From NCBI RefSeq assembly GCF_030286555.1, contig NZ_JASVWF010000005.1, forward strand, positions 248,001-312,000: 64,000 nucleotides of DNA, read 5' to 3'. This DNA comes from Actinomycetospora termitidis. Lineage in GTDB: Bacteria; Actinomycetota; Actinomycetes; Mycobacteriales; Pseudonocardiaceae. The position numbers were made by a program, and so were the translations under genes. Positions 51,823 to 56,841 of this stretch are shown in pieces (within the stretch, counting starts at the first letter, position 1; each line of letters opens with the position of its first letter). Under the pieces are notes generated by a model. That model searched no databases. It was not told the DNA's origin and saw only the letters and a list, made by a program, of their open reading frames with translations.

Positions 51823-53286
51823 TCATCCCAGCGTGAACGGGTCCCGCGTGCCGCCGGTCAGCTCGACCCACACCGCCTTGGTCTCCAGGTAGGCGTCGAT
51901 GCCGTGCAGGCCGTTCTCGCGGCCGAGGCCGGACTGCTTGAACCCGCCGAACGGGACGCTCGGTGAGAGCACGCGGTAGGCGTTGATCCACACCGACCCG
52001 GCCCGGATGCGCGCGGCGACCCGGTGCGCCCGGTGCACGTCCTTGGTCCACACCGCGCCCGCGAGGCCGTACGGGGTGTCGTTCGCGAGCTTGATCGCCT
52101 CCTCCTCGTCGGTGAAGGTGACCGCCGAGAGGACCGGCCCGAAGACCTCCTCGCGGTAGACGGTGTCCGTCGGCTTGACGCTCAGGACGGTGGGGCGCAC
52201 GAAGTAGCTGCCCAGCGACTCCTCGGCGACGCCGCCGTAGGCGATGGTCGCGCCCTCCTCGCGGGCCTTGTCGAGGTAGCCGAGCACCTTCTCGTACTGC
52301 GGCTGGTTGGCGACCGGCCCCATCTCGGTCTCGGCGTCCATCGGGTTGCCGAGCTTGATCGACGCGGCGCGCTCGGCGACCAGGCGCACGAGCTCGTCGT
52401 GGACGTCGGCGTGCACGATCAGCCGCGATCCGGCCATGCAGGTCTGCCCGGTCGCCGCGAACACGCCGGCGACCAGCCCGTTCGCGGCGGCCTGCAGGTC
52501 GGCGTCGGCGAACACGACCTGCGGCGACTTGCCGCCGAGCTCCAGGGTGACCGGGTTGAGGTTCTCCATCGCGGCCTGGCCGACGTGCCGGCCGGTCGCG
52601 GTGGAGCCGGTGAACGCGACCTTGTCGACGCCGGGGTGGGCGGCCAGGTGGGCACCGGTCTCGCGGTTCAGCCCGGTGACGACGTTGACGACGCCGGCCG
52701 GGATGCCGGCCTGCTCGATGAGGTCCGCGAAGCCCAGCGTCGACGCCGGCGCGTGCTCCGACGGCTTGACGACGACGGTGCAGCCGGCGGCGAGCAGCGG
52801 CGCCAGCTTGAACGTCATCAGCAGCAGCGGCGAGTTCCACGGCGTGATCGCCGCGACGACGCCGATCGGCTCGCGGCGGGTGTAGACGAGATAGTTCGGG
52901 TTCGGCGAGGGGATCTGGGCGCCCTCGATCTTGTCGGCCAGCCCGGCGAAGTAGTGGTACCAGCCGCCGAGGCCGTTGAGCTGGCCGAGCATCTCGCGGT
53001 AGAGCTTGCCGGAGTCGTTGACCTCCAGGGTCGCGAGGCGCTCGGCGTTCTGGCCGATCAGATCGCCCAGGCGGCGCAGGCACGCGGCCCGCGCGAACCC
53101 CGTCATCGCGCCCCACTCGCCGTCGAAGGCCGAGCGGGCGGCCGCGACGGCGGCGTCGACGTCGTCCGGACCGCCGTCCGGGATCGTCGCCCAGCTCTCG
53201 CCGGTGTAGGGGTTCTGCGACTCGAAGGTCGCCCCCGAGATCGCGTCGACGGACCGACCGCCGATCAGCATGCGGAACGTCTCCAT
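51823..53286 (-). CDS. NAD(P)-dependent aldehyde dehydrogenase
   Basis: A 487-residue ALDH. The catalytic Cys is in GVFAATGQTCMAGSR and the Glu in VTLELGGKSPQ; VAAITPWNSPLLLMTFKLAP, FTGSTATGRHV (cofactor) and the C-terminal FGGFKQSGLGRENG are standard. ATG 53286 is chosen over GTG 53295 because GAGGTG lies 7 nt upstream. Third gene of the operon FMN reductase, RibB-like, ALDH; oxidises an aldehyde probably released by the neighbouring LLM monooxygenase. The substrate is inferred only from this context. Confidence 0.93.
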   Translation of the reverse strand: METFRMLIGGRSVDAISGATFESQNPYTGESWATIPDGGPDDVDAAVAAARSAFDGEWGAMTGFARAACLRRLGDLIGQNAERLATLEVNDSGKLYREMLGQLNGLGGWYHYFAGLADKIEGAQIPSPNPNYLVYTRREPIGVVAAITPWNSPLLLMTFKLAPLLAAGCTVVVKPSEHAPASTLGFADLIEQAGIPAGVVNVVTGLNRETGAHLAAHPGVDKVAFTGSTATGRHVGQAAMENLNPVTLELGGKSPQVVFADADLQAAANGLVAGVFAATGQTCMAGSRLIVHADVHDELVRLVAERAASIKLGNPMDAETEMGPVANQPQYEKVLGYLDKAREEGATIAYGGVAEESLGSYFVRPTVLSVKPTDTVYREEVFGPVLSAVTFTDEEEAIKLANDTPYGLAGAVWTKDVHRAHRVAARIRAGSVWINAYRVLSPSVPFGGFKQSGLGRENGLHGIDAYLETKAVWVELTGGTRDPFTLG

Positions 53287-53291
53287 GGTGC

Positions 53292-53879
53292 TCACCTCGT
53301 GATCAGATCGGTGACGGCGAGGAACGCGAGTCCCTCCACCCGGGCGAAGGCGGCGGCGGAGGACGGGGGCACGAGGTCCCCGGTCTCCTCGTCGAGCAGC
53401 GTGCAGGTGACCGCGACGGGCCCGAGGCCGGCGAGCTCCGCGAGCGCCGACGCGGCCTCGGGAGCGCCGGCACGGCCGGGCCGGACGGTGGTGGCCACGA
53501 CGTGCCCGGGCCGGGTCAGGTCGACGGGCCGGCTGCCGGGGTCGGCGAGCACGGCGAGGGTCCGGGCACGGTCGGTCGCGCTGATGCCGGTGGTCACGCC
53601 GTGCGCCGCGTCGAACGGGACCGTCCGCGCGCTCCGCCCCCAGGCCGGGGCGAGGTCGAGCGCGGCGAGGGTCGCCTCCGGCGCGGCCGCCTCCAGGAAG
53701 CCGCTGCCGTAGCGCACGAGGAAGGCGACCGTCGCGGGCTCGATCCCCGCAGCGGCGGCGACGAGCACCGCGCCCTGCGATCCCGCGGACACGACGACGG
53801 GGCGGCCGCGCCGGGTCTCGGCGACCGCGTGGTCGACGAGATCGGGGGCGGCGGGGGGCGCGACGAGGGCGCAGGTCAC
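53292..53879 (-). CDS. Degenerate RibB-like (DHBP synthase fold) protein
   Basis: A 195-residue protein aligning with E. coli RibB over its length: AVAETRRGRPVVVSAG, RYGSG (RHGSG in RibB), FDAAHGVTTGISATDRARTL, DLTRPGHVV and the C-terminal AFARVEGLAFLAVTDL. The RENEGD catalytic loop is missing (SAGSQGAV occupies the place) and the second conserved His (GGHTE in RibB) is absent. Canonical 3,4-dihydroxy-2-butanone 4-phosphate synthesis is therefore unlikely. GTG 53879 is 24 bp past the FMN reductase stop and its own stop overlaps the ALDH ribosome site. Its place in a flavin-monooxygenase operon suggests flavin- or sugar-phosphate-related binding, a hypothesis only. Confidence 0.75.
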   Translation of the reverse strand: MTCALVAPPAAPDLVDHAVAETRRGRPVVVSAGSQGAVLVAAAAGIEPATVAFLVRYGSGFLEAAAPEATLAALDLAPAWGRSARTVPFDAAHGVTTGISATDRARTLAVLADPGSRPVDLTRPGHVVATTVRPGRAGAPEAASALAELAGLGPVAVTCTLLDEETGDLVPPSSAAAFARVEGLAFLAVTDLITR

Positions 53880-53903: not shown

Positions 53904-54446
53904 CTAGAGCAGCGGAGCGAGCGCGGTGATGGCGGGCGAGGCGCGCACCGCCGCAGTGAACTCCCCGAAGGCCCGCCCGTGCGCGGCGACGAGGGCGCGG
54001 GCCTCGTCACCCAGGTCGCCGTCGGGGCCGAAGTGGCCGCCGTGCAGGAAGAGCCCGGGCGAGAGGACCTGGGCCGCGAAGAACCCGGCCAGCACGGAGC
54101 GCAGGTCGTCGACGGCGAGGAAGTGCTCCGCGGCGTTGCCGGTGTGCAGGATCGCGGTCGCCTTCCCGCGCAGCGGAGCACGTCGCTCCCCCGTGGCCCC
54201 ACGCTGGGTGTTCTCCAGCAGGGCCTTGACCAGCCCGGACGAGCGGGCGCGGTAGGTCGGGGTGGCGATGACGACGCCGTCGGCGGCCTCGATCGCGCGC
54301 TGCACCTCCTCCGGGTCGGGCCCGTCTCCGAGCTCGATCACGGTCGTCGTGAGGCCGGTGGCGTCGAGGAACGCCGCGAGCGCGGTGGAGCTGCGCCCGC
54401 CCGCGTTCGGCGACCCGCCGATACCGACGACCGTGTGCTGGCTCAC
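53904..54446 (-). CDS. NAD(P)H-dependent FMN reductase (flavodoxin-like)
   Basis: A 180-residue reductase supplying reduced FMN to the partner monooxygenase. It resembles SsuE/MsuE: VVGIGGSPNAGGRSSTALAAF, GVVIATPTYRARSSGLVKALLE, LHTGNAAEHF and a C-terminal LFLHGGHFGPDGDLGDEA. GTG 54446 is supported by TACCGT (54459-54454, minus) exactly 7 nt upstream, with two tandem direct repeats (54481-54495 and 54502-54516) above it. First gene of the operon with the RibB-like and ALDH genes. Confidence 0.88.
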   Translation of the reverse strand: MSQHTVVGIGGSPNAGGRSSTALAAFLDATGLTTTVIELGDGPDPEEVQRAIEAADGVVIATPTYRARSSGLVKALLENTQRGATGERRAPLRGKATAILHTGNAAEHFLAVDDLRSVLAGFFAAQVLSPGLFLHGGHFGPDGDLGDEARALVAAHGRAFGEFTAAVRASPAITALAPLL

Positions 54447-54480
54447 GGCGTCGACGGTAGGCACGGCCCACGCCCCGCCC

Positions 54481-54516
54481 CATCCGCCGTGCGCACCGCG
54501 GCAGCCGATTCACGCA
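54481..54516 (-). promoter_or_regulatory. Candidate AraC operators upstream of the FMN reductase operon
   Basis: On the minus strand TGCGTGAATCGGCTG (54516-54502) and TGCGCACGGCGGATG (54495-54481) form a direct repeat with a 21-bp period. The inner copy ends 21 nt before the -10 box TACCGT (54459-54454). The motif matches TGCGCnnnnCGGaTG at the LLM promoter. Confidence 0.65.
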
Positions 54517-54578
54517 GGCGCCGCACGTTTGCGCGACGATCCCCCTGCGTGCAACCGTGTGTCCCACCACACAATGGC

Positions 54579-55589
54579 GTGATCGAGCAGAAGGTCTCGC
54601 AGGTGAGCCCAGCCGAGGAGCCCCTCGCGGCGCACACGGTGATGAACACCGCCGACGTCGACGAGGCGCAGCACGTCGTGTCGGAGGTCTACGTCCGGCA
54701 CGAGCTCGACTCCCTCGGCGGCCGGCCCCTCGACGCGCGGCTCAACAGCATCGCCTCGGAGCGCCTCACCCTGGGCTACCTGGTGTACGGGGCGCACGCC
54801 GCGCTGGACCTCCCGCCGCTCGAGCACTGTTACCACGTGAACCTGACCCTCTCCGGGCGCACCGAGGTCACCCGCCGTCGGGGGAAGGAGCGGGCGGTCA
54901 CGGAGGGCGGGCGCAGCGGGGCGGTCCTGATCCCCACCGAGGACTCCACCGTGCAGTGGACGCCGGAGGCGACGCAGTTCGCGATGAAGTTCCCGCGCGC
55001 CCCGCTCGAGGAGCACCTCGGCGGCCTGCTGGGGCACCCCATCCACGACGCGCTCGACTTCGACGTCTCGATGGACCTGACGGCGGGTCCCGGGGCGGCG
55101 CTGATGGGCGCGGTCCGGTTCCTGCAGACCGAGATGGACCGGCCGGGTGGGATCGCCGCCGCCCCGCTCGCCCGCGCCCAGCTCGAGACGTACGTGATGA
55201 CCGCGCTGCTGCACGGGGTGCGGCACCAGTACACGAACGAGCTCGTCGCCCCGCGCACCGAGGACCGGCCGGCGCTCGTGCGCCAGACGCAGGACTACAT
55301 CGACGCCCACGCCGGCGAGCCGTTCAGCATCCCGCAGCTCGCACGGCGGATGGGCGTCTCGACGCGGACGCTCCAGGTCACCTTCGCCCGGCACGTCGGC
55401 ATGACGCCGAGCGAGTACGTCCGCGACGTCCGACTGGCGCGCGCGCACGCCGACCTGCTGGCCGCCAACCCGGCCGACAGCTCGGTCACCGAGCTCGCCG
55501 CGGCCTGGGGCTTCCTGCACCAGGGCCGGTTCTCCGAGCAGTACCGCGCGAAGTACGGCCGCCTGCCGTCGCAGACGCTGCGTTCCTGA
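54579..55589 (+). CDS. AraC-family transcriptional regulator
   Basis: A 336-residue activator. The N-terminal AraC_binding_2-type cupin (DVDEAQHVVSEVYVRHELDS, part) is followed by the C-terminal double helix-turn-helix: EPFSIPQLARRMGVSTRTLQ, TFARHVGMTPSEYVRDVRLARA and SVTELAAAWGFLHQGRFSEQ with the final YRAKYGRLPSQTLR. GTG 54579 or GTG 54603 may be the start. It diverges from the FMN reductase operon and is 109 bp upstream of the LLM gene on the same strand. Tandem 21-bp-spaced repeats at both target promoters fit the family's mode of binding. Confidence 0.88.
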   Translation: MIEQKVSQVSPAEEPLAAHTVMNTADVDEAQHVVSEVYVRHELDSLGGRPLDARLNSIASERLTLGYLVYGAHAALDLPPLEHCYHVNLTLSGRTEVTRRRGKERAVTEGGRSGAVLIPTEDSTVQWTPEATQFAMKFPRAPLEEHLGGLLGHPIHDALDFDVSMDLTAGPGAALMGAVRFLQTEMDRPGGIAAAPLARAQLETYVMTALLHGVRHQYTNELVAPRTEDRPALVRQTQDYIDAHAGEPFSIPQLARRMGVSTRTLQVTFARHVGMTPSEYVRDVRLARAHADLLAANPADSSVTELAAAWGFLHQGRFSEQYRAKYGRLPSQTLRS

Positions 55590-55598
55590 CGGGTCGGT

Positions 55599-55662
55599 TG
55601 CGCACTTCGGATGTTCGGCTGCGCCTCACGGATGTCCTCCCCGCCCGGCGCCTTCCTACCGT
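55599..55662 (+). promoter_or_regulatory. AraC operators and promoter of the LLM monooxygenase
   Basis: TGCGCACTTCGGATG (55599-55613) and TGCGCCTCACGGATG (55620-55634) are direct repeats with a 21-bp period. The inner copy ends 22 nt before the -10 box TACCGT (55657-55662), overlapping the place of the -35. The same arrangement occurs at the FMN reductase operon, so one AraC protein probably activates both. Confidence 0.7.
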
Positions 55663-55698
55663 GATCCCGATCACCGACGACGCCGCTGGAGGTCCCCC

Positions 55699-56841
55699 AT
55701 GGTCCAGACGATCACGTACGGCCGCGAGCAGACGCTGCCCCTGGAGCACCCGCGTACCGGGCCGTCGATCTTCAACGACCAGAAGATGAAGCTCGGTCTG
55801 TTCGGCTCGAACTGTTCCGGCGGTCTGTGCATGACCGACGCGCCGACGACCTACGAGATCACCTGGGACCACACCAGGTCCATCGCGCAGAAGGCCGACC
55901 GGCTCGGGATGGAGGCGATGGTCCCGGTCGCGCGGTGGAAGGGCTTCGGCGGCAACGTCAACTTCAACGGCACGAACTTCGAGACGTTCACCTGGGCCGC
56001 CGGCATCGCCGAGGCCACCGAGCAGATCACCGTCTTCACCACCACCCACATCCCGACGGTGCACCCCGTCGTCGCCGCGAACATGGCCGTCACCAACGAC
56101 CACATCGCGAAGGGCCGGTTCGGGATGAACCTGGTGATGGGCTGGTTCACGCCGGAGATGGGGATGTTCAACCCGAAGCAGCTCGAGCACGACGAGCGCT
56201 ACGTCTACGGCGGGGAATGGCTCGAGTTCGTGGAGCGCCTCTGGACCGCGGAGGGTGAATTCGACATCGACGGCACGTACTTCCAGGCGCAGAACCTGGA
56301 GTCCGAGCCGAAGCCGGTCCAGAACCCCAGGCCGGTCCTCATCAACGCCGGCAACTCGAAGTCCGGCACGGACTTCTCCGCGAAGTACGTCGACATCAAC
56401 TTCGCCTCGCTCGACATGGAGAAGATGGCCGACTACACGAAGGACATCAAGCGCAAGGCACGCGAGGACTACCAGCGACAGATCTCGACGATGACCTACG
56501 GGCTGGTCGTCTGCCGGGACACCGAGGCCGAGGCCAAGCGCGACCACCAGCGGATCATCGACGAGGGCGACTGGCCGGGCGCCCGCAACCTCATGTCGAT
56601 CATCGGCATGGAGTCGCAGTCGTTCAACGAGCAGATCGAGAAGTTCCAGGAGCGCTTCATCGCTGGCTGGGCCGGTCAGCCGCTGGTCGGCACGCCGGAG
56701 CAGGTCGTCGAGGGGTTCCAGCAGCTCTCCGACCACGGCATGGAGGGCATGATCATGGGCTTCCTCGACTACAACGAGGAGATCGACCAGTTCGGCGAGC
56801 AGGTCATGCCGCTGATGCGCGAGGCGGGCCTTCGCCACTGA
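55699..56841 (+). CDS. LLM-class flavin-dependent monooxygenase (RutA/SsuD-like)
   Basis: A 380-residue bacterial-luciferase-like monooxygenase that uses reduced FMN and O2. KMKLGLFGSNCSGGLCMT, AVARWKGFGGN-like VARWKGFGGNVNFNGTNFET (part), TTTHIPTVHPVVAANMAV, KGRFGMNLVMGWFTPEMGMF and the end GMEGMIMGFLDYNEEIDQFG are shared in pattern with RutA- and DmoA-type enzymes. The ATG has GGAGG 6 nt upstream in a leader of about 30 nt after TACCGT. It is the likely partner of the FMN reductase in the divergent operon. Substrate unknown: candidates are heterocycles, sulfones or other compounds whose oxygenation releases an aldehyde. Confidence 0.9.
   Translation: MVQTITYGREQTLPLEHPRTGPSIFNDQKMKLGLFGSNCSGGLCMTDAPTTYEITWDHTRSIAQKADRLGMEAMVPVARWKGFGGNVNFNGTNFETFTWAAGIAEATEQITVFTTTHIPTVHPVVAANMAVTNDHIAKGRFGMNLVMGWFTPEMGMFNPKQLEHDERYVYGGEWLEFVERLWTAEGEFDIDGTYFQAQNLESEPKPVQNPRPVLINAGNSKSGTDFSAKYVDINFASLDMEKMADYTKDIKRKAREDYQRQISTMTYGLVVCRDTEAEAKRDHQRIIDEGDWPGARNLMSIIGMESQSFNEQIEKFQERFIAGWAGQPLVGTPEQVVEGFQQLSDHGMEGMIMGFLDYNEEIDQFGEQVMPLMREAGLRH

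Follow-up and report, generated by a model that had tools for sequence, protein, structure and literature searches.

The stretch of DNA analysed here, referred to as the window, is a 64-kb (64,000 nucleotides) piece of the Actinomycetospora termitidis genome. A gene for an AraC/XylS-family regulator lies in it between a luciferase-like (LLM) monooxygenase gene and an operon on the opposite strand. The genes of this locus are the following:

51823..53295, minus strand: aldehyde dehydrogenase (ALDH), PF00171 by domain match, third in the operon, with an overlap into the RibB-like gene
53292..53879, minus strand: RibB-like protein, PF00926 by domain match, without the DHBP-synthase catalytic motifs (motif check)
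53904..54446, minus strand: NADPH-dependent FMN reductase, PF03358, probable start reassigned to GTG 54446
54579..55589, plus strand: AraC/XylS-family regulator of 336 aa, PF14525 (AraC_binding_2) plus HTH_18, GTG start, the proposed activator
55699..56841, plus strand: LLM (luciferase-like) FMN-dependent monooxygenase, PF00296 by domain match

The first-pass annotation had placed an AraC gene between two promoters, and we indeed find it there, from the GTG at 54579 to the stop at 55589. Its product carries PF14525 at the N-terminus and a double helix-turn-helix at the C-terminus (HTH_18, E 6e-23; HTH_AraC in two stretches). The nearest solved relatives of the LLM monooxygenase are dimethylsulfone monooxygenase (SfnG-type) and RutA, but it scores below the NCBIfam curated cut-offs of both families (196 versus 383 bits for SfnG, 173 versus 498 bits for RutA). 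For the FMN reductase, the mechanical open reading frame has its start codon at 54464, on the upstream side of the -10 box described below; because of this, and in agreement with the orthologs, the true start is probably GTG 54446. This codon follows the -10 box by only 7 nt, so the transcript is probably leaderless in the window. Most relatives have an FMN reductase gene with a GGAGG site and a longer leader; the window leader (54446-54579 region) is shortened, with the start codon nearly abutting the -10 box, and the GntR/FCD gene that relatives carry between the FMN reductase and AraC genes is missing from 54446-54579. A 40-bp palindrome (GTGAGCA...TGCTCAC) was also observed four times in the window (13435, 51774, 56858 and 60960) and at 39 sites in the genome, with none for the reversed pattern. 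Its two arms covary, and three of the copies (51774, 56858 and 60960) are found at gene ends; it may be a REP-like or terminator element.

Both promoter regions contain the same arrangement of two 15-bp direct repeats separated by a 6-bp gap, giving a period of 21 bp. The repeat pair of the LLM gene spans 55599-55634 on the plus strand, and that of the FMN-reductase/RibB-like/ALDH operon spans 54516-54481 on the minus strand. All half-sites listed here were established by letter-for-letter match and by conservation:

55599..55613, plus strand: distal half-site of the LLM operator, TGCGCACTTCGGATG
55620..55634, plus strand: proximal half-site of the LLM operator, TGCGCCTCACGGATG, at the 21-bp period
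55657..55662, plus strand: TACCGT, the LLM promoter's -10 box, 22 nt downstream of the proximal half-site; orthologs have TAGCGT
54502..54516 (54516-54502), minus strand: distal half-site of the FMN-reductase operator, TGCGTGAATCGGCTG
54481..54495 (54495-54481), minus strand: proximal half-site of the FMN-reductase operator, TGCGCACGGCGGATG
54454..54459, minus strand: TACCGT, the -10 box for the FMN-reductase operon, 21 nt downstream of the proximal half-site

The four repeats had been reported by eye, two before the LLM gene and two on the opposite strand before the FMN reductase operon, and all four are exact. The common TACCGT reported 21-22 nt past the inner repeat is likewise present, at 22 nt (LLM) and 21 nt (FMN reductase); the minus-strand box lies slightly beyond the start coordinate that had been given. 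When repeats and -10 box were combined into one pattern with up to 3 mismatches, the window yielded two matches, both with 0 mismatches, while shuffled sequences gave a mean of 0.13 matches and two matches in one of 100 runs.

The first-pass annotation had named a lack of conservation at orthologous loci as grounds for refuting its reading; in this test, conservation was clear. The sample comprised 18 genomes, assigned to Actinomycetospora by matching GTDB records, with the window genome as G000. Close orthologs of the regulator (81-90%) were found in five other genomes, and all five retain both the LLM and the FMN-reductase operators. The zero-mismatch pattern occurs ten times in the 18 genomes, always at these two promoters and twice each in G000, G001, G003, G014 and G016, and G015 has both operators with one mismatch each. 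Across the six loci, 73% of the half-site columns are invariant in the LLM operator and 80% in the reductase operator. The flanks are 0-30% invariant in most blocks, with about 1% over the 80 upstream bp and 0-30% on the downstream side, although the comparison is ungapped and the upstream flank of the LLM operator is mostly the 3′ end of the AraC coding region sliding out of register, so the upstream figure overstates the contrast there; on the reductase side, the comparison is cleaner.

With the -10 box placed at offset 21 or 22, the patterns gave 13 and 8 matches, respectively, in the 18 genomes (21 in total), and the reversed pattern gave 0. All but one of these matches are at loci of this regulator clade, the sole exception (G014:C13) having no real -10 box. 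By these pattern searches, on which membership of the regulon in its own genome is based, the window genome has three such matches, one at each window promoter and one at an LLM paralog on contig C11.

In the relatives, at least one gene lies between the AraC gene and the reductase operon, and yet the operators are kept at both promoters. The intervening gene is a GntR/FCD regulator where checked; G016 additionally has a second LLM gene. No zero-mismatch pair was found in those of the 18 genomes that have no close ortholog of the regulator. That the repeats persist despite the intervening genes, and are absent in this form where the ortholog is absent, supports the proposal of one AraC protein for both promoters. 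In Actinomycetospora soli (G016; locus L061, 4639-5881), this second LLM gene (58%) stands between those for the FMN reductase and AraC and comes with an operator of its own, whose -10 box is at offset 22.

A wider GTDB genome scan with a regulator alignment led to 58 loci, 57 of which were used. These come from Pseudonocardia, Nocardioides, Streptomyces, Klenkia, Williamsia, Arthrobacter, Bacillales and others, and ALDH and LLM genes commonly adjoin the regulator. We scored 114 regions upstream of ALDH, LLM, FMN-reductase or RibB matches with a half-site threshold of 16 of 20. At a period of 21, 53 of the 114 regions reached at least 16, against 3-16 regions at other periods. Of these 53 regions, 49 have the start of a TANNNT box at offset 21 or 22, and a start at any other offset within the next 60 bases was seen only once; the -10 box is not part of the half-site score, so this agreement is independent support. 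Random-window controls held true sites from the same loci and were not used as a false-positive rate.

Building a motif from orthologous loci had been proposed as a check, and the matrix made from the 53 sites answers to it. A scan of 757 kb (0.76 Mb) of related loci at a threshold of 20 bits gave 106 sites, 84 of them with a -10 box at 21/22, and none in the reversed sequence. The period and matrix scans together define a half-site syntax of TGCR-N6-GGMTR with a period of 21. The matrix was trained on 53 of the regions later scanned, and the independent evidence is therefore the -10 offset and the sites upstream of AraC genes. There are 23 of the latter, all outside the training set, and 22 of the 23 have the -10 box at 21/22. 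Further sites outside the training set precede CoA-transferase III, HMGL-like and HpaC-type flavin reductase genes. Overall, the sites lie before genes for monooxygenase, ALDH, flavin reductase of two unrelated types, RibB(A), CoA-transferase and lyase, and often before the regulator gene itself. The repeat arrangement is real, and about fifty related gene clusters conserve it. Such sites are absent at loci whose regulators and LLM genes are the most distant (Bacillales, Prescottella, Nocardia); the rule therefore belongs to one clade and not to all AraC_binding_2 proteins. At some distant loci (L085, L066, L078, L087 and L092), the same operators were seen before CoA-transferase III and HMG-CoA-lyase-like genes, and these targets hint at a pathway ending in CoA-thioester cleavage.

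The regulon initially proposed consisted of AraC, the LLM monooxygenase, the FMN reductase, the RibB-like protein and ALDH. The proposal fits for the target genes, but nothing points to control of the AraC gene by its own product: no site of at least 14 bits was found upstream of the window AraC gene, in contrast to the 23 sites before AraC genes of related loci. The RibB-like protein keeps its predicted co-regulated position, but not the catalytic motifs of DHBP synthase. The RENEGD acidic loop is missing (a gap plus SQGAV stands in its place) and GHTEA is replaced by APEA; the ortholog in G003 is likewise without the acidic loop and the GHTEA segment, while the catalytic motifs are intact in the RibBA of relatives. 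Values of dN/dS against four relatives are 0.22-0.33, so the gene is maintained as a protein under purifying selection. In G015, the RibB-like gene is missing between the FMN-reductase and ALDH genes. More distant loci have an intact bifunctional RibBA, in some cases with its own operator, which suggests that the original role of the RibB gene in the regulon was flavin supply.

The binding pattern had been read as that of AraC-type activators, with their 21-bp period over the -35. The geometry holds and matches the studied XylS/Pm operator, so that the assignment can be refined from a generic AraC to a XylS type. XylS (pWW0) has the same Pfam architecture as the window regulator (PF14525 plus HTH_18) at 28% protein identity. 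The Pm promoter of pWW0 reads TGCAAGAAGCGGATA-CAGGAG-TGCAAAAAATGGCTA-N21-TAGGCT, and the layout 15-6-15-21-(-10) is common to Pm and the window promoters, as are the positions of the TGC and GG/T boxes within the half-sites. XylS/Pm uses two 15-bp repeats, each with a box A (TGCA) and a box B (GGTA), 6 bp apart (PMC5481539). In the window clade, box A is TGCG more often than TGCA; because the fourth position is more often G than the A of XylS, the case for DNA recognition is one of analogy. With a -10 box 21/22 nt away, comparable to Pm, the proximal repeat lies across the predicted -35 region; transcription starts are predicted near 55669 for the LLM gene and beside GTG 54446 for the FMN-reductase operon. 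By the features that can be compared (helix-turn-helix, PF14525, operator and -35 overlap), the window regulator is a XylS-type member. There are also differences, in that one window regulator would serve two or more separate promoters per locus, unlike XylS/Pm, and its predicted targets are an LLM monooxygenase, a reductase and an ALDH, whereas XylS/Pm drives a meta-cleavage operon.

Among actinobacteria, CphR of Rhodococcus sp. YH-5B is an AraC-type activator of the cphA2A1 promoter that likewise combines tandem repeats with a two-component monooxygenase, and promoter mutation showed that it acts through TGCA-N6-GGNTA repeats at -35 to -69; its monooxygenase belongs to the 4-chlorophenol class and it has a single divergent promoter (PMC6205950). 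The SsuD/SsuE, SfnG and RutA systems resemble the window in pairing an LLM oxygenase with an FMN reductase; the window LLM differs from them in its XylS-type regulator and in falling under the SfnG and RutA family cut-offs. In the literature searched, no regulon of this make-up was described, the nearest being the ipp cluster of Rhodococcus sp. D-6, where a RibB-type gene lies beside, and is co-induced with, a two-component flavin monooxygenase, but the oxygenase is HsaA-type and the text of the paper does not mention AraC (PMC12442392).

Directly observed are the sites with their spacing and conservation, the fact that they are confined to loci of this regulator clade, and the correspondence with XylS/Pm. 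A XylS-type activator that would switch on both promoters through the shared operators explains these observations with high confidence. The AraC gene product is predicted to be a XylS-type transcription activator whose N-terminal PF14525 domain would sense a small-molecule inducer. A dimer would occupy the two tandem 15-bp TGCR-N6-GGMTR half-sites at their 21-bp period. With its end 21-22 nt before the -10 box, the proximal half-site touches the -35 position, so contact with RNA polymerase would be possible. One operator type at two promoters would then co-activate the LLM monooxygenase and the FMN reductase/RibB-like/ALDH operon. We infer that this protein binds the sites, that it activates rather than represses, and that an inducer exists.

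The main rival concerns which protein reads the sites. The window genome has a second AraC gene on contig C11, 74% identical to the window regulator, with near-identical DNA-reading helices and an identical recognition-helix segment (STRTLQVTFAR). Its locus (L035, G000:C11:247000-260000) also contains a GntR gene, an HpaC-type flavin reductase gene, an LLM paralog (88% to the window LLM) and two operator-like sites. These sites precede the flavin reductase and LLM paralog and score 22.7 and 25.2 bits, the 25.2-bit site being the one also found in the -10-pattern search. Both window operators could thus be read by the two regulators together, or mainly by the paralog, in a regulon with cross-regulation between two loci, and with such a paralog and similar sites at hand the exclusivity of the window regulator stays a candidate reading. 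We consider shared reading possible but rather unlikely, as the C11 sites match the window consensus more weakly, the regulator adjoining the window sites is the simpler candidate, and G001, G003, G014 and G016 keep both window-type operators with a single close ortholog.

Repression or dual regulation at these sites is very improbable. Direct repeats near the -35 could obstruct polymerase, and AraC itself is a dual regulator, but tandem repeats close to the -35 are the arrangement of XylS-type activation, and both window promoters lack a good -35 hexamer 17-18 nt away from the -10 box. It is less probable still that another regulator uses the repeats, such as the GntR/FCD protein whose gene, in several Actinomycetospora genomes, stands beside the FMN-reductase operon. 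Short palindromes are the usual targets of GntR proteins, not direct repeats with a 21-bp period, and similar sites occur at dozens of loci gathered by their AraC gene; we rejected GntR as the reader because the window locus keeps the sites where the GntR gene is missing. Chance matches, for which GC-rich composition is the only argument, are ruled out by the shuffles, the reversed-sequence controls and the conservation.

Very probably, then, one AraC/XylS-type regulator of this soil actinomycete turns on a monooxygenase gene and a separate helper operon through the same repeat pairs. Its mode of control is, as a well-supported prediction, like that of the well-known XylS switch and not a new kind of system. 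More tentatively, and with the odds somewhat against it, the locus may be one branch of an apparently undescribed actinobacterial regulon in which a XylS-type regulator with identical operators ties an LLM monooxygenase and the enzymes of its pathway to the supply of flavin, by way of RibBA and a flavin reductase that belongs to one of two unrelated types. In the window lineage, the enzyme of flavin synthesis would then have turned into a conserved RibB-fold protein that lacks the catalytic motifs of DHBP synthase and has taken on a new, non-biosynthetic role.

An observation made by eye has thus become a strongly supported predicted regulon, and the matrix together with the spacing rule finds the operators of this clade in many actinobacterial genera. 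In the predicted regulon, genes for a monooxygenase, a reductase, an ALDH, RibB(A), a CoA-transferase and a lyase would fall into a single pathway, which eases the search for the substrate of the uncharacterised LLM monooxygenase. Moreover, it offers a predicted inducible promoter for actinobacteria with XylS-like logic.
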